The position numbers were made by a program, and so were the translations under genes. Shown piece after piece: positions 8,310 to 27,209 of a stretch of 64,000 bases of DNA. Below the pieces are notes generated by a model. That model searched no databases and had not been told where the DNA came from. It worked only from the letters and a program-made list of their open reading frames with translations. How positions within the stretch are numbered: the first letter of the stretch is position 1; each line of letters starts with the position of its first letter. Source of the DNA: Collimonas sp. OK242 (GTDB lineage: Bacteria > Pseudomonadota > Gammaproteobacteria > Burkholderiales > Burkholderiaceae_D); assembly GCF_900107095.1 (NCBI RefSeq), contig NZ_FNOR01000001.1, forward strand, positions 62,001 through 126,000. Reading direction: 5' to 3'.

Positions 8310-8376
8310 GTTAGGAATGTCCCTACATCAAGATCAGGATGTGCCGATATTTCCTCGGCGAAAGAGTTGTTATTCT
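8310..8376 (+). promoter_or_regulatory. Shared-architecture promoter P2 of the minor-pilin operon
   Basis: The first box TAGGAATGTCCCTA (8312-8325) overlaps CCTACA (8322-8327). Six bases later comes TCAGGATGTGCCGA (8334-8347), then 23 bases, then TATTCT (8371-8376) as -10. The two box centres are 22 bp apart, two helical turns. Predicted start is near 8383, giving a leader of about 130 bases before pilE. Confidence 0.65.
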
Positions 8377-8938: not shown

Positions 8939-9513
8939 TGCAGGCCTCCCCGGAAGAACGAGGGTTTAGCCTGGTCGAGCTGATGATCACGATTGCCTTG
9001 GCAGCAATTCTGATGGCGGTCGCCATACCTTCGTTCTCCAGCTGGATCCGGAACACCAAGATCAGGTCCACCGCCGAGGCGCTGCAAAACGGCATCCGGC
9101 TGGCAAAAACCGAGGCGGTGCGGCGCAGCCGGCTGGTCGATTTCCGGCTGACCGCAGTAAAGCCGGAAAAGGATGCGGCAAGATCCAGGAGCGGTACCAA
9201 CTGGTACGTTCAGCAAAATGCTGCGCTGCTGGCATCCGATTCAAGCGACGCGGATTACAACCTTTTTGTCCAGGGATCTTCACTGTCAGGCGCAAATGCC
9301 AATGTTACCGTGGCAGGCAGTGTGGACACAGTGACATTTGATAGTCTGGGACGTGTAGTGTCTATTTCAGGTAATAGCCCTCCCTACACCTTTGACATCA
9401 ATACTGCCGATGCCGGTTATCGCAAGCTCAGAGTTGTTGTCACAGCTAGCGGCCAGATTCGCATGTGCGATCCCCAAATTACGTTATCCAGCACAACTCC
9501 GACAGGTTGCTAA
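8929..9513 (+). CDS. FimT/GspH-type minor pseudopilin
   Basis: 194 residues from ATG 8929; an alternative ATG at 8938 overlaps the pilE stop by one base. The leader ends ERG/FSLVELMITIALAAI, a prepilin peptidase site with E5. The following SWIRNTKIRSTAEALQNGIR and LAKTEAVRR segments are the signature of the GspH/FimT family. It probably primes pilus assembly with PilV, PilW, PilX and PilE, and FimT homologues can bind DNA during natural transformation. Overlap with pilE and direct abutment to pilV indicate one operon. Confidence 0.9.
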   Translation: MRVMQASPEERGFSLVELMITIALAAILMAVAIPSFSSWIRNTKIRSTAEALQNGIRLAKTEAVRRSRLVDFRLTAVKPEKDAARSRSGTNWYVQQNAALLASDSSDADYNLFVQGSSLSGANANVTVAGSVDTVTFDSLGRVVSISGNSPPYTFDINTADAGYRKLRVVVTASGQIRMCDPQITLSSTTPTGC

Positions 9514-18055: not shown

Positions 18056-18415
18056 TTACATCACCAGCGCTTGCTCTGCGTCCAGTACCTTGCGGCGGGC
18101 CAGCGCCAGGTTGGATTTGCTCTTGTCCAGAACCGCATAGATGAACAGGCCTTCATGTTTTTCTATCGGGCGCAAGATGTGATACTGCTTGCCGAGAGTA
18201 ATCAGGATATCTTCGATGCTGTCTTTCAAGCCGAGACTTTTCATGGTTTTTGTCTTGGCGCGCACTACCTCGGTATTGCCGGCCGCAGCCAGTTCCAGAT
18301 CGATGCCGGAGCCGCCGGAACCCAGGATCATCCCGCTATTGCTATCGACGATGGCTGCCGTCAATGCGCCATCGATGCCCAATAATGTGTCAATGATAAC
18401 ATTCATGTTACTCAT
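18056..18415 (-). CDS. Roadblock/LC7-domain protein (second in module)
   Basis: 119 residues, all one Roadblock/LC7 fold: LLGIDGALTAAIVDSNSGMI, then LAAAGNTEVVRAKTKTM and IEDILITLGKQYHILRPIEK. Bacterial roadblock proteins (MglB family) bind small Ras-like GTPases as GAPs, GEFs or scaffolds. It is the last gene of the minus-strand module with a GTPase, a second roadblock-like protein and an unknown protein. A 101-bp gap separates it from the previous gene. No signal peptide; cytoplasmic. Confidence 0.82.
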   Translation of the reverse strand: MSNMNVIIDTLLGIDGALTAAIVDSNSGMILGSGGSGIDLELAAAGNTEVVRAKTKTMKSLGLKDSIEDILITLGKQYHILRPIEKHEGLFIYAVLDKSKSNLALARRKVLDAEQALVM

Positions 18416-18516
18416 ATTTTCCCCCTGCTTATATAGATAGTGGCGTTGAATGGAACAGAAACATCACCGTCGGCCGACCAGCGCCGGTGATGCATAGAGC
18501 GGATTTGGAGATGGCT

Positions 18517-18918
18517 TTATTTATTGAGGTCTAACTGCTGGATGAAATTGCTGACAATCTTGTCGACCGTCCAAAGCGTGTGTCCCAGGATAGCGTCCCG
18601 ATTGACAACGATGCACAGCAAATAAGGATATTGCATGCCGACTGGCCGGAAGATGATTTTCCCCTCCGGGGCTTCGAGCAGCAGGCGATCGCATCCGTGA
18701 AAATCCACTTCCTTGCCTACCGATCGCGCAATCGCCACCAGGGAGCTGGTCATTGCCGACAGGCGAACCGCGCTGAATTTCCGCCCCGGGTCGTGGATGG
18801 CGATTTCCTGGCCATCCAGGGTGGTCATGACTACCGTGGAGATGCCGTTTTGGGTCGTGCCGATTTGATTGAATACGTGATGGGCGGCGCTTGTTGCAGA
18901 AGCTAGCATGGCTTTCAT
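18517..18918 (-). CDS. Roadblock/LC7-like protein (first in module)
   Basis: 133 residues with a divergent roadblock layout: ISTVVMTTLDGQEIAIHDPG, an Arg/Ser-rich helix RLSAMTSSLVAIARSVGK, then GCDRLLLEAPEGKIIFRPVG and YLLCIVVNRDAILGHTL. This matches the order of strands and helix in LC7 proteins, and the motif LLLEAPEGKI is common in roadblock proteins linked to COG2229 GTPases. It starts 18 bases after the GTPase stop. Two different roadblock subunits in one module suggest a heteromeric partner for the GTPase. Confidence 0.75.
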   Translation of the reverse strand: MKAMLASATSAAHHVFNQIGTTQNGISTVVMTTLDGQEIAIHDPGRKFSAVRLSAMTSSLVAIARSVGKEVDFHGCDRLLLEAPEGKIIFRPVGMQYPYLLCIVVNRDAILGHTLWTVDKIVSNFIQQLDLNK

Positions 18919-18936
18919 GTCTCTTGATAGTTGAAT

Positions 18937-19461
18937 TTATGTTGTTACCAGCAGTGAAGAAAATATGTCCAATGCATCAAGCATTTGCGATTTTTCCCGT
19001 ACGTCCGCTGTGATCGCCGGCACCGGCATGCCCAGCATTTTTGTCAGCGCCGATGAAAACCGGTCGGTCGCCTCGGCACTGATCGGACGCGCCAGCAACA
19101 GCATGCATGGCATGGTTTCTGCGACCGACAAGACGGTGCGGATATATTGCGCTGCTATCTGAACCGAGTCCGGCTGGTTGGCGTCGACCATCACGATGAC
19201 GCCGATAGACATGGAGAGCAGCCAACCGCGTACGAAATCGAAGCGATCCTGTCCGGGGCTGCCGTAAATATGCAGCTGCTCGCCGCCATCCAGTTCCACC
19301 ACGCCGAAATCGGCGCCGACAGTGGTGTTTTTTTTGGCGGAAGATGAGGGATCCATGTTAGGGACGTCGCAATCCACCATGAGATCCCCGCACAGAGAGC
19401 GGATGGCGGTGGTTTTGCCGATCCCCATCGGCCCTAGCAGAACAATCCGGAGTATGCACAC
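18937..19461 (-). CDS. Small Ras-like GTPase of the COG2229/MglA-related group
   Basis: 174 residues from a GTG at 19461, whose G is the last base of the upstream TAG stop (TAGTG), indicating translational coupling. An ATG at 19506 would add 15 residues and overlap the upstream gene, so it is less likely. The P-loop is LLGPMGIGKTTAIRSLCG. The switch II region is LHIYGSPGQDRFDFVRGW, where a PGQ replaces the usual TAGQE. The strand VIVMVDANQP replaces the NKxD specificity loop. GTPases of this group work with roadblock proteins as polarity or signalling switches. Neighbouring pilus genes suggest a role in pilus control; that is inference. Confidence 0.85.
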   Translation of the reverse strand: MCILRIVLLGPMGIGKTTAIRSLCGDLMVDCDVPNMDPSSSAKKNTTVGADFGVVELDGGEQLHIYGSPGQDRFDFVRGWLLSMSIGVIVMVDANQPDSVQIAAQYIRTVLSVAETMPCMLLLARPISAEATDRFSSALTKMLGMPVPAITADVREKSQMLDALDIFSSLLVTT

Positions 19462-20255
19462 TATGGGGTTCTCTCCAACTCTTGTGACCGAGCCCGGCCC
19501 AGCCACTGATTGATTTTCTTGACGAATAATCCGACGCCGCCTTCCCTTTGCTCCAGCGATATCTGCTGCGAGGATTGGCGGGCGAGTTGGTGCGTGATGA
19601 GTTCATGAGCGCTGAGCGCCATATCTCCTTCAACAAGCACGCTCTTCTTTTTCAATTCATCAAGAAACAGATACGCATCGCGTTCAGTCAAGCCGCCATA
19701 TGTCAACAGCCAGCGCCAGTTGACGGTCTGTTTTGTCATTACCGCAAGAATTTTTTTAAACCGGACCGTAGAGAAATCATGTTCGAGACTGATCCATTTC
19801 GAGATGCGATAGTTTTTTTGCGAGAATGGATCAGCATCCATGTCCGGGCTGTCGCCAATGGTTTTCATGTCTAGCAATCGCAAGGCAGCCCGATCCAGTG
19901 CGTTAACCAAATCCGAAAGGCTGAAATTGAGCGGCAGAGTCATGTCTCCTTTACGGCCTGGATAGGAGGCGGATTCGGAAATCCAGATACACACGCAGTT
20001 AGCCGGAAGCGCCTCGCGCGCATTGAAAATCTGCATGTCCAGAAGCGCCACCGAGGCACGCTTGAGATCGGAGGGGATCCATTTGAATACCGTTTTTCCA
20101 TCCGCAAGCTGCATCAGGAGGTCATAGCGCAAGAATTCTTTCTCAGCGAGATATCTGAGCGATATAGGGGCAATTTTACGCATCGCGTACGCCGATTCGA
20201 GTGCTGCTGATGGAGGCGAAGGCGGCGGTGAGGCGGCGGAATTGCGCGCTTGCAT
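19461..20255 (-). CDS. Unknown protein of the GTPase module; possible pseudo-receiver plus winged helix
   Basis: 264 residues from ATG 20255. An alternative ATG at 20183 (MRKIAPIS) would remove a Pro/Ser-rich stretch; neither has a clear ribosome-binding site. The middle part (KRASVALLDMQIFNAREALP, ending in LPLNFSLSDLVNALDRAALR) has the beta-alpha rhythm of a receiver domain without the acidic pocket. The C-terminal part (WRWLLTYGGLTERDAYLFLD, ELKKKSVLVEGD) looks like a winged helix. I recognise no named family with certainty. It is the first gene of the minus-strand module and is coupled to the GTPase gene, so it may be the upstream input or effector of the GTPase. Confidence 0.6.
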   Translation of the reverse strand: MQARNSAASPPPSPPSAALESAYAMRKIAPISLRYLAEKEFLRYDLLMQLADGKTVFKWIPSDLKRASVALLDMQIFNAREALPANCVCIWISESASYPGRKGDMTLPLNFSLSDLVNALDRAALRLLDMKTIGDSPDMDADPFSQKNYRISKWISLEHDFSTVRFKKILAVMTKQTVNWRWLLTYGGLTERDAYLFLDELKKKSVLVEGDMALSAHELITHQLARQSSQQISLEQREGGVGLFVKKINQWLGRARSQELERTP

Positions 20256-20460
20256 TTTCTAATTGCCAATTCAGCATGGATTCTTCCTTCAAAGACGCGG
20301 TAATTCAGTCGACATTTGCTTGCCAGGCGAGCGGCGTCTGCAAGGCATGTGTATGCAAAGTATTTTTTCGTTCCCTGGGCGTGCGACAAGATTAAGCAAT
20401 GCGACGAATAGGGGGTATCAGGGAATCTTTATATTTCCGTAGGCTCAGCGTTGCCGATTG

Positions 20461-20474
20461 TAAGGAAATCCCTA
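20461..20474. promoter_or_regulatory. RcsB-like palindrome TAAGGAAATCCCTA
   Basis: A 14-bp box of the same type as those at P1-P5, 206 bp upstream of the GTPase module and in the gap before the CxxH/CxxC gene. On the minus strand, TATAAA (20433-20428) lies 28 bases further and could be the -10 of the GTPase module; this spacing is a few bases longer than at P1-P5. Confidence 0.45.
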
Positions 20475-20587
20475 GTTCCTCTATGAAAACTTGAGCGCCG
20501 CAATGTTTTCAAGCAGCGAATTTTGTTGTTGCCGATCCAATTTATATCGGCTGACCAGCGGAATAATTTGCGATTCTGAAGGAAATT

Positions 20588-21367: not shown

Positions 21368-24300
21368 TTACCAGCTCCAGCGCGTGCCCGTATTCGCCAT
21401 CAGCGTGCGCTGTTGTGTTCCGCCGAGGTTGCCGGTGTAGCTTACGGCAACGAACGCACTGGTCGATTTGCCGATCTTTGCGGCCAAGCCAAAGTTTAGC
21501 TGGCCCGCTGTCTGATTCGCGCTGGTGGAAATGGCTGTCGCACCGTCAAAATTGCTAGTATCGTGAGCGCCGCAGCTCCGCAGTATGTTGACCCGCAGAT
21601 ACGGCAGCCAGGCCGTTGCCGCTGTCTCAAACCGGCCTTGCAAGCGCATGCCGAGCCGAGCCAGGAAGGCGCTGCCGTGGTTGAAGCTCACAGCAGACAC
21701 GCCGTCGTGTAAATCGTTGAACCGCAGATTTTGCCAGATCACTTGCGCCTGAGGTTCGATGCTTGCGCTGGCGCCAAGCGGCATTGGCAGGCCGCCCTCG
21801 ATCGATCCGATGAGCGCGCTGCCATGCGTTGTGGCGCCGACGCCATCACGCGAACGCGGATCTGCCGACAATGAACTTCCCATCAGGACTGTATCCGTGT
21901 ACCAGCCGCCGGGGCCGACCTGAGTCCAGTAAGCGCCCAGGCTGTAGGCGTCGACCGACAGCTGGCCGACATCGCGATTTTGCATGGCCATCGCAAAGCC
22001 GTTGACATTCCCGGCGGCGTGCGCAAAGCCGGCAAACAGACCGTAATGGTTGCGTTGCCCGCCAGCGCTGGTGTCGGCATAGATGTCGTGGCCGGCCTGC
22101 ATTCCCGTCATTGATCCATCGAACTGGGGCGAAACAGTACCGTCCTGACCTTGCCTGGTGCTGCTACCCCAGACACGCCCCCATGCGGCCGGCAATGCGC
22201 CGTTCTCGGTCAGCAGCGATTGCTCTCCCTGGCGGTCGTGGAAGTTGTCGAGCTGCTGGAGGTTGAGCTGCCGGGCGACACTGGCAATTTCTGCATAAAT
22301 CGGCACTTCGGGGCGATACAGCGGGATTGCGCCGGAGCCTGTCGTGGGCTGGGTGACTGCGGGTGTAGTCAATGGCGTGGCGGGGGCGGTGCTTGCAGGT
22401 GCGACCAAGGTCGTGCTTGGAGGCGTAGTTGCAGGCGTAGCGGGCATTTGCGGCAAGGTGTTGCGCAGATACCAGTTTTCGGATGTGCCGCTGGTCACGC
22501 CGCCTTTGGCAAGATAGTAAGAATATGCGCCAGCCTTGAGCGGGCCGGCCAGCGTGAATGCACCTGCGGCCGTCGTCGCCCCATTTACGGCCTGCACCAC
22601 TTCAATGCCGTCAGCGACGATGGCGGCCCCGGGGCCGCCGATATTCGCGATGCGCAAACTTGACGTTCCGCTGGCGGCGCCGCCGTTAATCACCAGCCGG
22701 TCCGACGCCGCGCCGTCGCCTGCCAGGTAAGTGTTGAGGGCGATGCTGCCGTTGCGGCCGACATAGTTACCGACGACATTGAGCCGGTTGCCAATGCCTT
22801 GGCCGCCGATTTGCACCAGGCCGGCGTTCACCAATGCACCGTTGATCGTAAAGGCGCCGTTGCCCGAACTGGCAAACGGGGGCAAGGCGTTGGCCACCGC
22901 GACGGTGCCGCTGTTGGTCACTGCCCCTGTGATGCTGCCATAACCGCCGAGCACGGCGCCTGACGAGACGGTCGTACTGCCGCCGGACAATGCTGCATTG
23001 GCGTGAGAGGCGTCGCCCACTGCCAGTATTCCGGCGGCGGCGATGGTGCCGCCGGTATATGAATTGTCAGCATTCAGCATCGTCATGCCGGTGCCTGCCT
23101 GCGTGACAGAGCCGCTACCGGAAATCACGCCGGCGAAAGTCACGTTGTCTGAACGCATGAAGACAAGCGCACCATTGTTTGCGACATCGCCCACGATGCT
23201 GCCAGTCGTGCCATCGTTACCCAGCTGCAGCGTGCCGGCCGAAATCGTCGTGCCGCCGGTATAAGTATTGCTTCCTGCAAGCGTCAGGCTTCCTGTTCCC
23301 GCCTTGTTGAAACCGCCGGAACCAGCTATGCCTTGCGTCAGCGTCGATGCAAATCCTTGCGTGTCGATCGTGCCGCCCGCTGCATTGAGCGATACCGAGC
23401 GGGAATTGGCGAGATTGAAGCCTTGCAAAAGCTGCAGCGTACCGCCGTTGAATGTCAGGCCACCGGTATTTGCACCCAGTGCGTTGTCGGCGCCGGCAGC
23501 GACAATCCCGCCAGTGAGCGTGGTGCCGCCGGAATAGGTATTGCCGCCGGCGGCTGCCGGCGCCAGCGCCAGCGTGCCGCCCAGGGTCTTTTCGAGCGCA
23601 CCGGCGCCGGAAATGAGACCGGTATAGGTCCCGTTGTCGGGCTGCGCAAAACGCACCAGGCCATTATCCGCAACGGCGAGCGGCAGGTTTTGCGCGCGTG
23701 CTTCAAGCGTGCCGGCCGCATCGACGGTCACTTTTCCGGTATATGCGCTGTTGTTAGCGGTCAAAGCCAGCGTGCCTTGCTGAACTTCGGCGGTCCTGAT
23801 CCCGGTGATGGGGGTGGTCAGCGTCCAGGTTCCCGAATCGTTTTTGATGAGTGATGAGAAATTGGTGATATTGCCGGGCAGGGAGGCGCTCCCGGTGCCG
23901 CTCAGGAAGAGGGCATTGTTGCCGCCGCCGCCATCGAATTTGCCCGTGATGACCGATCCTGTATAGAGTCGCAATGTGTCGTCGCCGCCGGAGAAAACAA
24001 GGTTGCCGGCGATTCGCCCCTTGTTGCTAAAGTCCACCGCGCCGTTGCCGGATGCACCGATCACATTGCCCGGCGCCTGGATGACGCCGGTTTCATTGTT
24101 GATAACCGTGTTCAGCCCGCTCGCGTTTTGAAACCAGATGGCAACAGCGTGATCCGCCTTGATCGTGCCATTGTTGACGATAAGATTGCCACTGCCTTGC
24201 GGATTGACTGCTTCGGCACTGACCGCGGTGCCGGTCGCCAGGACCTGGCCTCCTTGAGCGACAGTCAGGGTGCCGTTATTGCGAAACTCGATCGTATTGG

Positions 24301-24643
24301 CGCCGGCCTTATATAGTCCAGGATTGCGGACCCCGTTGGCGCTTACCGTGCCGCCGTTCTGGACCGTTATGTTTGCGTTGTCGCGCAAGCTGATTGCGTT
24401 TGCGTCACCGACCGCGATCCGGCTGCCCGTGCCGACTGTGACCGTCCGGCCATCCTCGGCCGCCAGATTGCCTCTGCCAACCGGCGTGGTCCAGGGATTC
24501 GCCGCGCTGGCGTCGCAGATTGTCGATTGCCCAGAGGTGACGCAGGCCGCATAAGCAGTCCCGGGTTTCACACTCAGCGCGGGTATCAGCAAAAGGGAAG
24601 ATGCGGCGGAAAGCGCAAAACGATAGCGGACGGGATGGGACAT
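21368..24643 (-). CDS. Type V autotransporter with PATR-repeat passenger
   Basis: 1091 residues. The signal peptide ends GTAYAAC. The passenger (about 32-700) is a beta-helix built of autotransporter-associated repeats, for example NTYTGGTTISAGTLQLGNDG and GGTLALAPAAAGGNTYSGGT. A Pro/Thr/Ala linker (TPPSTTLVAPAST, TPLTTPAVTQPTTG) joins a C-terminal autotransporter barrel of about 270 residues. The barrel starts near PAAWGRVWGS and ends on the aromatic TRWSW required for BAM insertion. It would display or release the passenger at the cell surface; adhesion or autoaggregation is the usual role. The palindrome at 24746-24763 and a TATAAA at 24726-24721 precede it. Confidence 0.92.
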   Translation of the reverse strand: MSHPVRYRFALSAASSLLLIPALSVKPGTAYAACVTSGQSTICDASAANPWTTPVGRGNLAAEDGRTVTVGTGSRIAVGDANAISLRDNANITVQNGGTVSANGVRNPGLYKAGANTIEFRNNGTLTVAQGGQVLATGTAVSAEAVNPQGSGNLIVNNGTIKADHAVAIWFQNASGLNTVINNETGVIQAPGNVIGASGNGAVDFSNKGRIAGNLVFSGGDDTLRLYTGSVITGKFDGGGGNNALFLSGTGSASLPGNITNFSSLIKNDSGTWTLTTPITGIRTAEVQQGTLALTANNSAYTGKVTVDAAGTLEARAQNLPLAVADNGLVRFAQPDNGTYTGLISGAGALEKTLGGTLALAPAAAGGNTYSGGTTLTGGIVAAGADNALGANTGGLTFNGGTLQLLQGFNLANSRSVSLNAAGGTIDTQGFASTLTQGIAGSGGFNKAGTGSLTLAGSNTYTGGTTISAGTLQLGNDGTTGSIVGDVANNGALVFMRSDNVTFAGVISGSGSVTQAGTGMTMLNADNSYTGGTIAAAGILAVGDASHANAALSGGSTTVSSGAVLGGYGSITGAVTNSGTVAVANALPPFASSGNGAFTINGALVNAGLVQIGGQGIGNRLNVVGNYVGRNGSIALNTYLAGDGAASDRLVINGGAASGTSSLRIANIGGPGAAIVADGIEVVQAVNGATTAAGAFTLAGPLKAGAYSYYLAKGGVTSGTSENWYLRNTLPQMPATPATTPPSTTLVAPASTAPATPLTTPAVTQPTTGSGAIPLYRPEVPIYAEIASVARQLNLQQLDNFHDRQGEQSLLTENGALPAAWGRVWGSSTRQGQDGTVSPQFDGSMTGMQAGHDIYADTSAGGQRNHYGLFAGFAHAAGNVNGFAMAMQNRDVGQLSVDAYSLGAYWTQVGPGGWYTDTVLMGSSLSADPRSRDGVGATTHGSALIGSIEGGLPMPLGASASIEPQAQVIWQNLRFNDLHDGVSAVSFNHGSAFLARLGMRLQGRFETAATAWLPYLRVNILRSCGAHDTSNFDGATAISTSANQTAGQLNFGLAAKIGKSTSAFVAVSYTGNLGGTQQRTLMANTGTRWSW

Positions 24644-24745
24644 TTTGTTTTAACTTATGAAATCGGCGTGCGCCAAGAGTAGTCAGCAAAAAGGAGGTGC
24701 GGCATCAGGAAGCCATGATTTTTATACGGAATTGCGGCATTTAAT

Positions 24746-24763
24746 CGTAGGGATTTCCCTACG
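24746..24763 (-). promoter_or_regulatory. Perfect palindrome CGTAGGGATTTCCCTACG before the autotransporter
   Basis: Eight-base arms with a TT centre, the most symmetric member of the RcsB-like box family in the window. On the minus strand, TATAAA begins 22 bases after the TAGGGA-TT-TCCCTA core, close to the spacing of the second box at P1-P5. It lies in the gap between the lipoprotein and autotransporter genes, so the autotransporter likely has its own regulated promoter. Confidence 0.6.
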
Positions 24764-24798
24764 ATGCGGGCTGCGCCAGCCGCAGCCCGCATTTTTCT

Positions 24799-26934
24799 TC
24801 ATTGCACCGTCACGTAGTAGCTCGTAGCATCCTGCCCGCCTACCAAAGTAACGCCGTTGCCGCTGATGCTGGAGAAGCCGCCGCTGACGCCGCCCGCGGC
24901 CTGCACCACCACGTAGCGGCTCCCTTGCGCCGGCGTCGCAGCGAAATTGAGCGTCAAGCTGCCGGACAGAAACGCCTGTCCGCCGGCCTTGAGCTGATCG
25001 CTGACGCTGCCGATCGACAATGTGAGATTGCCGCTCGCAGTCTGCGTGTAGTTGCCGCTGACGGTGATCGCATGCTGGCTGCCGGCGGTCGCCAGTGTTG
25101 CGCCGTTGCTGACGCTGCCACTGCCTAGTGCGGTGGCGCTGGCTACGTTCAGTGTGCCGCCGCTGATCGTGGTGCCGCCGCTGTAGCTGTTGGCGCCCGC
25201 CAGGGTGGTGCTGGCGGCGCCGGCCTGCTTGACCGCACCGCTGCCGCTGATGTTCGACAAGGTGATGGCGGTCGATGTGTTGGCGATAATCAGCGTGCCG
25301 TTGTCGACGATGGCGTTGCTCAGGCTGCCGTTGGCCGATTCGGCGGTCAGCAGGCTGCTGTCCCCGGTGTAGGTCGCCAGCGTGGTCTTGCGCGTGATAG
25401 CGCCATTCGGTTCGGCTGCTGTCGGCGCACCCACGGTCGCCAGCACCGCACTGACCGGCGCACCGTTGCCGATCTGCAGCGTGGCGCCGGCGCCGATGGT
25501 GGTAATGCCGTTGTAGTTCTGCGGCATGGTCAGTATCGCGTAGTTGCCCGCGGTGGCGGCGATGGTCAGATTGCCGGTTCCGGTCGAGCCGTCGGCGTGC
25601 GGGCCGCCGCCTCCTCCTGTAATACTCACGTTGCAGCTGTACCTGCCGTTGTAATCGAACACCAGGGTCGAGCCTCTGTGCAAATTGATATAGGCATTTT
25701 TTACAGAGGAATCGGGCGCAGCGGGCGATGGCGCCGAAGGCAGGAAGAACTGATTATTTGTGCCGTCGCCCCATTGGGTCGTGCCGCCCTCGATGTTGAT
25801 GCCGCGGAAACTGGAATTATGACCTCCGGTAGGGCTGCCTGAGACATTCTGCACCAGCATGGTGTTCAAGCTGGGATCGCTCAAGGACGGCTTGAGCTGG
25901 TCGCCGCTGTTGCTGTAGCTGTAGACGCCGGAAAAAATCACCAGGCCGGAGTTGGTGTTGATATCGTCGCCGTAATGGCTTTCCCAGATGGTTTTAGGAT
26001 ACTTCAGCTGGTGGGCCGCGGTATCGCCGAACAAGCCCTCCGGGGCCGCCGTGATGAACGACTCGTTGCTGAAAATGGTCGCATTCGGCATCGAGAAGAT
26101 GACATGGTCGACGCCGAAATAACCGCCATAGAGCTGCGAGTACACGCCGCTGAACGGATTGTCGCCGACGAAGCGGACAGTACCGCCGGTGGAGCCGATG
26201 GGGGGGCGCCGGATGACGCCGCTACCGCTCAGGATACCCATGTTCAGTGCCGGACCGGATTCCAGGACCAGGGTGCCGTCGATCTGGAAATTGTCGAGAT
26301 TGATCGTGGTGCCGGCAGTGTTTGGAATATAGCTGCCGATGCTGCCCCCGGTCGATGAAGGCGTGCCCAGTTGCAATGTGGCGCCGGCATTGACGATCAC
26401 TGCCGGCGGATTGGGATTGTGGATGACCCAATAATGCACGTGGTTGGGATCGAAGGGGCTCTTGGTTTGCGTGGCGGTTTCGGTTTGCTGCGAGGCCGGC
26501 AGCGTGAAATTGCTGTCAGCGGTGAGCACCAGGGTGCCTGCGCCGCCGGGGGCGCGCACCGTGAGCGTGCCGGTGCCGGAGATGACGCCGCTGTATGTGG
26601 TTGTTCCGGCGGGGATGTTGACGACAGAATCGCCATTGAGAACGATGTTCTGGTCGGCCAGGATCGACGCGCTGATGTCGATCAGCGCTACCGTTGTCAC
26701 CGGCGTAGTGGTCGAACCGGTGGTGCTGGTGTCGCTTGTGTTAGTGGCAGTGCTGCCGCTCGAAGTGCTTGAATTGCTGTCGGTCGCGGTGCTGGTCGTG
26801 GTGGCCTGTGTCGCCGGATTGGCGGTATTCGCTGTGTTGCCGCTGCTGTCGCTGCTGTCGCCGCCTCCGCAAGCGCTCAGCGTCGAGATCAAGGCAGCAG
26901 CGATCAGCGGCGGAATATGGATTTTAATTTTCAT
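24799..26934 (-). CDS. Lipoprotein with autotransporter-type PATR repeats but no barrel
   Basis: 711 residues. A lipoprotein signal ends LSAC/GGG with the lipidated Cys at 22. A Ser/Thr/Asn low-complexity linker (DSSDSSGNTANTANPAT and following) leads to a beta-helix-like body, with two or more PATR repeats near the C terminus (ANSYSGGTTISGGTLNVASA). It ends GGQDATSYYVTVQ, without any membrane barrel. It precedes the autotransporter gene on the same strand, separated by 155 bp. Lipid anchoring plus a similar passenger suggests a surface or periplasmic partner of that protein; whether it reaches the outer leaflet is not visible. Promoter P5 lies about 280 bases upstream. Confidence 0.85.
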   Translation of the reverse strand: MKIKIHIPPLIAAALISTLSACGGGDSSDSSGNTANTANPATQATTTSTATDSNSSTSSGSTATNTSDTSTTGSTTTPVTTVALIDISASILADQNIVLNGDSVVNIPAGTTTYSGVISGTGTLTVRAPGGAGTLVLTADSNFTLPASQQTETATQTKSPFDPNHVHYWVIHNPNPPAVIVNAGATLQLGTPSSTGGSIGSYIPNTAGTTINLDNFQIDGTLVLESGPALNMGILSGSGVIRRPPIGSTGGTVRFVGDNPFSGVYSQLYGGYFGVDHVIFSMPNATIFSNESFITAAPEGLFGDTAAHQLKYPKTIWESHYGDDINTNSGLVIFSGVYSYSNSGDQLKPSLSDPSLNTMLVQNVSGSPTGGHNSSFRGINIEGGTTQWGDGTNNQFFLPSAPSPAAPDSSVKNAYINLHRGSTLVFDYNGRYSCNVSITGGGGGPHADGSTGTGNLTIAATAGNYAILTMPQNYNGITTIGAGATLQIGNGAPVSAVLATVGAPTAAEPNGAITRKTTLATYTGDSSLLTAESANGSLSNAIVDNGTLIIANTSTAITLSNISGSGAVKQAGAASTTLAGANSYSGGTTISGGTLNVASATALGSGSVSNGATLATAGSQHAITVSGNYTQTASGNLTLSIGSVSDQLKAGGQAFLSGSLTLNFAATPAQGSRYVVVQAAGGVSGGFSSISGNGVTLVGGQDATSYYVTVQ

Positions 26935-27084
26935 GACTTATGAGTGGGATGAAATTGACATCTCGGTCTGAGCACGGATCGTGCCTGACAAAAATGGGCA
27001 GGTTGCCACGGTGAGAAGAGAGGGAAGGGCAATTGAAATCCATAATTTCGGCACATCAATTCAGGAATTTTCCGTCTTAGGCAA

Positions 27085-27209
27085 TCATCGTCATGTCGAC
27101 ATATTTCGAGCCGCTATGGCTGCTGCCTGAAAGATTGACATCGAAGCCGCCGCCGACATGCTTTATTGGAGCGCCTCATATTAATGCTGGCAATGTTGCC
27201 TTTTGACAT
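27085..27209 (-). pseudogene. Possible frameshifted small ORF in the leader between P5 and the lipoprotein gene
   Basis: From ATG 27209 the minus strand reads MSKGNIASINMRRSNKA, then loses the pattern. The adjoining frame reads HVGGGFDVNLSGSSHSGSKY followed by VDMTMIA and a stop. Joined by a single frameshift, the two halves look like one compact peptide. There is no clear ribosome-binding site, and the ATG lies at the predicted transcription start of P5, so this may be chance. The rest of 26935-27213 shows no gene. Confidence 0.2.

Follow-up and report, generated by a model that had tools for sequence, protein, structure and literature searches.

Several described systems share single features with the gene pair studied here. 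In SadB/SadA, a lipoprotein gene lies directly upstream of an autotransporter gene, as described in passages of PMC3953254. NalP, the lipidated autotransporter of Neisseria, carries a lipid anchor on its passenger, and the pullulanase PulA, a substrate of type II secretion, is a carbohydrate-directed surface lipoprotein; both are treated in parts of a review which also names Slam, Bam, type V and type II systems as routes for surface-lipoprotein export (PMC7857515). The passengers of type Va autotransporters such as IcsA, UpaB, pertactin, Ag43 and Ssp are beta-helices with a terminal cap, and Ssp carries one passenger-associated transport repeat (PATR) according to an excerpt of PMC9977779. 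The pair studied here, from Collimonas sp. OK242, consists of an autotransporter gene (21368-24643) and a lipoprotein gene (24799-26934), both on the minus strand of a 64,000-nucleotide stretch (contig NZ_FNOR01000001.1, positions 62,001 to 126,000, assembly GCF_900107095.1). This whole stretch is called the window, and coordinates refer to it unless another locus is named.

The reading favoured here, with a probability of roughly 0.6, is that the lipoprotein is an autonomous beta-helix anchored in the outer membrane and probably directed at glycans, that the autotransporter is autonomous as well, and that the two are neighbours and not obligate partners. SadB is small and aids a trimeric autotransporter, whereas the autotransporter of this locus is type Va and persists in genomes without the lipoprotein. 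NalP owns a barrel, but the Collimonas lipoprotein has none. With PulA it would share a carbohydrate-directed role; no sequence relation between the two was detected. In low-confidence structure models the lipoprotein resembles type Va passengers by its helix and terminal cap, but it has no barrel and would carry its lipid anchor at the opposite end. PAP2-family phosphatase lipoproteins of the Oxalobacteraceae share with it a lipobox-like start, the absence of a barrel and a C-terminal module of PATR and beta cap; they have an N-terminal PAP2 domain where the lipoprotein has its predicted long beta-helix.

The lipoprotein and the autotransporter

The lipoprotein has 711 residues and begins with MKIKIHIPPLIAAALISTLSAC. 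The lipobox consensus is L-[AS]-[GAS]-C, and the signal peptide closes in such a motif, LSA-C, read from the sequence (residues 19-22, 26869-26880). Cys22 is followed by GGG, and Cys and GGG are invariant among four aligned relatives. Judged by this motif, the protein is a bacterial lipoprotein. A Ser/Thr-rich tether follows (residues 26-83, 26686-26859), with 59% Ser/Thr over 58 residues; its length differs between relatives. Lipobox and tether are present in all four orthologues, the one of the window included. Neither barrel family, PF03797 or TIGR01414, was found in the lipoprotein by Pfam and NCBIfam scans, and Pfam gave no match to the AC_1 autochaperone domain. Its sole Pfam match is one PATR (PF12951; residues 571-597, 25144-25224), which scores 32.7 bits against a gathering score of 27. 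A sequence search of the PDB returned nothing at E<=1. Apart from its PATR, the lipoprotein family is unnamed in Pfam and NCBIfam, as far as these scans indicate.

The autotransporter gene, delimited as an open reading frame (ORF) and identified by Pfam and NCBIfam, encodes 1091 residues ending in RWSW. PATR (76.6 bits in four stretches), AC_1 (residues 619-711, 22511-22789, 95.4 bits) and the Autotransporter beta-barrel (PF03797; residues 820-1067, 21443-22186, 130.3 bits) are all over cut-off, and TIGR01414 of NCBIfam also matches. With a barrel over the curated cut-off, an autochaperone and a PATR passenger, it is a type Va autotransporter. The lipoprotein gene lies directly upstream, with a gap of 155 bp. 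The original prediction, made from the letters alone, of a lipoprotein with lipobox and Ser/Thr-rich tether and without a translocator domain, encoded directly upstream of a complete autotransporter, is borne out in each of these points. It had also spoken of PATR repeats in the lipoprotein; PATR is indeed present, but in a single copy over cut-off. A local PATR profile found that copy at residues 568-597 (32.7 bits) and one further fragment of 6.2 bits, where the best of 300 shuffled controls reached 5.9 bits; on the autotransporter it found four copies above 30 bits.

Autotransporter length ranges from 906 to 1151 residues across orthologues and paralogue (loci L054, L055, L057, L058, L060 and L063), apparently through both loss and gain within the PATR region. 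A maximum-likelihood tree of the AC_1-plus-barrel regions was mostly unresolved (one of seven inner branches starred) and did not separate paired from solo autotransporters; the motif used for cutting rows was missing in four of the five fetched paralogue loci, so only one of them entered, and the tree supports no claim.

Conservation and decay of the gene pair

Fifteen Collimonas genomes were searched, 14 of them at least 90% complete. A lipoprotein orthologue (87-91% to that of the window) occurs in four of them, namely the window's own genome, OK412, C. silvisoli RXD178 and G208, and in all four the autotransporter follows on the same strand. A conserved pair, which had been proposed as something to look for in relatives, does exist. 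Two further genomes, G028 and G143, hold an intact autotransporter (906 and 933 residues) without a full lipoprotein gene. There, the autotransporter is separated by 354 and 309 bp from a divergent gene for a PAP2-PATR lipoprotein, and a PAP2-PATR lipoprotein gene also flanks the lipoprotein in OK412. At one end, both gaps keep 61-62 bp from the very 3' end of the lipoprotein gene (85-87% to OK412; E 5e-16 and 8e-14); at the opposite end they keep 125 bp that match the region upstream in OK412 at about 90%. In G028, a 37-bp inner piece is retained in addition. Because remnants of the gene end and of the upstream region persist beside an intact autotransporter, comparison of the loci indicates that the lipoprotein gene was deleted in G028 and G143 while the autotransporter was kept. 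The lipoprotein is thus lost in two of the six genomes with the autotransporter at this locus, and strict co-occurrence of the SadB kind is not seen. A solo autotransporter paralogue occurs in six of the 15 genomes, and the one in the window's genome stands alone. A small clade has conserved the pair, as a neighbourhood rather than as an obligate system of two proteins.

The ratio of nonsynonymous to synonymous substitution rates (dN/dS) of the lipoprotein is 0.14-0.19 in six of six orthologue pairs; by this measure the gene is under constraint. For the whole autotransporter gene, 14 of 15 pairs give 0.18-0.22, and the remaining pair, G028-G143, gives 0.32.

More distant relatives of the lipoprotein were also found. 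A paralogous clade, here called clade B (47-48%), is present in G028, G143, OK412, G102 and G208, and one relative (50%) lies outside the bacterial family, in G488. At none of the five clade-B loci, nor in G488 (where the fetched stretch has 12 ORFs, all inspected by eye and two of them also scanned), is the relative adjacent to an autotransporter gene; in G028 and G143 the autotransporter is 11-12 kb away. The lipobox is present in these distant relatives too. The clade-B member of G028 gave no Pfam match at E 0.01, PATR included. Because no PATR was detected in this scanned member, the repeat looks like a variable module and not like a hallmark or the ancestral core of the family. The hallmark is residues 361-480 (25495-25854), the most conserved block, together with residues 521-560: over eight sequences (four orthologues, three of clade B and G488), 53-57% of their positions are invariant, compared with 3-45% in the remaining bins of 40 residues.

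PATR outside type V proteins

PATR had been supposed to be found as a rule only in type V passengers, a view which the bacterial family contradicts. In 60 family genomes, 37 frames with PATR over cut-off were found, 26 with a PF03797 barrel and 11 without, absence being judged by PF03797 alone and the frames being paired by hand via contig and frame length. One of the 11 (in G051) runs off a contig end, which makes 10 of 36 the safer count. The barrel-less frames include PAP2-phosphatase lipoproteins and PEP-CTERM proteins. In a search of 392 family genomes, with scoring confined to the top two candidates of each genome, the C-terminal part of the lipoprotein matched many proteins of about 650-700 residues. 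All ten of those scanned (taken from 10 of 19 shorter stretches that had been fetched) have a PAP2-plus-PATR architecture, and most carry a lipobox, as judged by eye. Two further barrel-less PATR proteins end in a PEP-CTERM motif, one of them just below the cut-off. In this bacterial family, lipoproteins with PATR are nothing unusual. Since about one third of the examined PATR frames are barrel-less, and many of these are lipoproteins, PATR is no marker of type V secretion. The question arises what the repeat does where the barrel is missing, and the natural barrel-less proteins offer material to test it.

The combination of PAP2 and PATR recurs across the family. A PAP2 phosphatase lipoprotein with a like PATR-plus-cap end stands divergent from the pair at loci L055 (5848-7821) and L057 (11919-13883). 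In G027, three very large PATR-rich frames (one of 7903 residues, on contig C5) occur in a genome with zero PF03797 matches. In open-licence papers, nothing was found tying the autotransporter-associated beta strand repeat to lipoproteins or to PEP-CTERM, and among papers on the passenger-associated transport repeat none concerned a lipoprotein by its title; because the search covered open-licence papers only, absence from print is not established.

The lipoprotein and the autotransporter were also said to carry the same repeats. Without low-complexity masking they do align (E 1.6e-8, 38% over 125 residues), but the solo autotransporter paralogue of the window's genome aligns better to the lipoprotein (E 9.5e-12). 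With masking on and database size fixed, the lipoprotein scores 30.8 bits to its paired autotransporter, 36.6 bits to the solo paralogue and 33.5-50.4 bits to eight PAP2 proteins. Because the paralogue and the PAP2 proteins exceed the neighbour, the similarity is read as a general PATR signature, with no sign of a matched pair. PATR similarity exists as claimed, a closer kinship between the two neighbours does not, and no evidence for their interaction was found in the computational analysis.

Predicted fold of the lipoprotein

Two structure models of the lipoprotein reached a mean predicted local distance difference test (pLDDT) score of 47.2 and 53.4. Confidence is low because only four sequences were usable. 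The last ~90 residues are modelled well, the C-terminal beta cap (residues 620-711, 24802-25077) being the best-predicted part (pLDDT 74-91 by blocks). When the first low-confidence model was compared with known structures, it matched VacA p55 (Z 12.9, root-mean-square deviation 4.4, 276 residues aligned), UpaB (12.6, 5.1, 299), IcsA (12.2, 5.2, 231) and pertactin (11.9, 4.5, 303), and its last residue aligned where the matched stretch of the passenger ends. For the second model, from which the tether was removed, IcsA (Z 12.4, 4.4, 223) and VacA (12.1, 4.6, 251) lead. The lipoprotein is likely a right-handed beta-helix.

Possible function, export and alternative explanations

In E. coli, glycine at position +2 directs lipoproteins to the outer membrane. 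The Collimonas lipoprotein, with Gly at +2, would be exported by Sec, lipidated at Cys22 and sorted by Lol to the outer membrane, where a flexible Ser/Thr tether would carry a right-handed beta-helix resembling a type V passenger minus its translocator. Its PATR-plus-cap end is a module common to other barrel-less lipoproteins of the family. Anchored in this way, the protein would most likely bind polysaccharide, or act on it, at the cell surface or close to it. The autotransporter would be exported via its own barrel, without need of the lipoprotein, and the two genes form an old neighbourhood that some Collimonas have retained and others have broken up. The window's genome has one type II secretin, GspD, over cut-off (618.8 bits). 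SlipAM/SLAM (PF04575) gave no match there, and control genomes were equally silent.

Genes for polysaccharide enzymes lie near three of the four pairs: GH28 in G208, GH27 with CBM13 and ricin domains in C. silvisoli, and Alginate_lyase in OK412. At each of the five clade-B loci there is a gene for an alginate-lyase/F5-8C protein, for a BNR/sortilin-like protein or for the two together (one member of each was scanned, the remainder assigned by homology). For Cellvibrio, part of PMC5816542 describes a GH5 that is lipidated, has a serine-rich linker and is predicted to sit on the outside of the outer membrane by its anchor. Given the enzyme neighbours, and with a lipid anchor and tether like those of this GH5, a glycan-directed role of the lipoprotein is our best guess.

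Several observations weigh against this interpretation. The nearest genes at the window's own locus encode a DUF6920 protein, a nitroreductase-like protein and a cluster of GTPase and roadblock proteins, with no carbohydrate enzymes, and the counts of enzyme neighbours stand without a background rate. No catalytic family was found in the lipoprotein by Pfam, NCBIfam or PDB sequence search. In the second model, the Sf6 tailspike (Z 12.0) and PL6 lyases (11.3-11.4) tie with the passengers, and because of this tie the models do not establish a type V-like helix as opposed to a generic one. Profile comparison of the cap with the autotransporter's AC_1 region found no similarity (hhalign probability 2.4%). 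Lastly, the autotransporter passenger of G028-G143 has a dN/dS of 0.41 against about 0.2 for the pairs (barrel 0.16; dS only 0.07), which fits continued use of these autotransporters and may point to some relaxation after the loss of the lipoprotein.

A sharper version of the glycan role would make the lipoprotein an active beta-helix polysaccharide lyase or glycosidase, anchored like the lipoproteins among carbohydrate-active enzymes. The enzyme neighbours and the densely conserved central block are consistent with it, as are the modelled matches to PL6, GH28 and tailspike structures (Z 10-12) and the Cellvibrio parallel of PMC5816542, in the part drawn on above. Since no enzyme family or PDB sequence match emerged and catalytic residues were not identified, this remains a tentative and rather doubtful idea. 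Descent from an autotransporter by loss of linker and barrel and acquisition of a lipobox, leaving a relic displayed by its own fold, would explain the single PATR and the passenger-like helix, whose C-terminus superposes near passenger ends in the models. It is unlikely, given that the cap has no sequence similarity to the AC_1 region, that strong similarity to an autotransporter was seen nowhere beyond the PATR region, that PATR went undetected in the scanned clade-B member, and that the second model fails to separate passengers from other beta-helices. The proposal that the lipoprotein serves the autotransporter as a dedicated helper, be it a chaperone or a factor for display or release, with its PATR acting as contact or decoy, can draw on the adjacency in all four orthologue genomes, the SadB/SadA precedent and the slightly higher passenger dN/dS after lipoprotein loss, but it is improbable in view of the two genomes with an autotransporter alone (the lipoprotein gene of SadBA is lost along with the adhesin, according to passages of PMC3953254), the common solo paralogues, the beta-rich domain of more than 600 residues where SadB is small, and a repeat no nearer to the autotransporter than to other proteins.

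Intergenic DNA and neighbouring genes

A candidate regulator site had been suggested for each of the two genes. The 16-bp inverted repeat GTAGGGAAATCCCTAC, the one clear palindrome, does lie upstream of the autotransporter (24747-24762), its core being recognisable in most relatives, but no match was found upstream of the lipoprotein with up to three mismatches. Similar sites at 20460-20475 and 8311-8326 bring the number in the window to three, against 0.16 expected. With up to two mismatches it occurs at six places of the genome (seven rows; controls 1 and 1), three of them on this contig. The sites may mark a regulon under a shared regulator.

The site at 20460-20475 is near a cluster on the minus strand (18056-20255) encoding a Ras-like small GTPase, a roadblock/LC7-like protein and a 264-residue protein. 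This cluster lies beyond the autotransporter in the window and in C. silvisoli, and on the lipoprotein side in G208. Just past the lipoprotein stop codon is a GC-rich hairpin of 13 pairs (24763-24793, minus strand), with a T tail on the plus strand only. Promoter and terminator predictions were set aside because they were no more frequent than chance would give (2 promoter-like sites where 2.4 were expected, 2 terminator-like sites where 6.1 were). A 104-bp 3' remnant of a substrate-binding-protein gene, with an in-frame stop, lies immediately upstream of the lipoprotein gene (27056-27159, minus strand; 92% to C. silvisoli, where the gene is intact at this place). OK412 has a 257-bp insertion between lipoprotein and autotransporter (L059, about 9000-9265), with perfect 23-bp terminal inverted repeats and similar to a miniature inverted-repeat transposable element, which is absent from the remaining pairs. 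PADLOC returned none.

Outlook

Collimonas is a fungus-feeding soil bacterium. Autotransporters of C. pratensis are induced on biotite, according to parts of PMC12542777 that do not mention this gene pair. A bolder possibility, and a long shot, is that a passenger-type beta-helix is displayed at the surface without a type V translocator, by type II secretion or another lipoprotein exporter, alongside the autotransporter, and that the PATR-plus-cap end aids folding or display in barrel-less proteins. If true, PATR plus cap would serve barrel-less proteins at large and not type V secretion. On the favoured reading of an autonomous, anchored beta-helix, the lipoprotein family may serve a soil bacterium as a surface protein directed at glycans.

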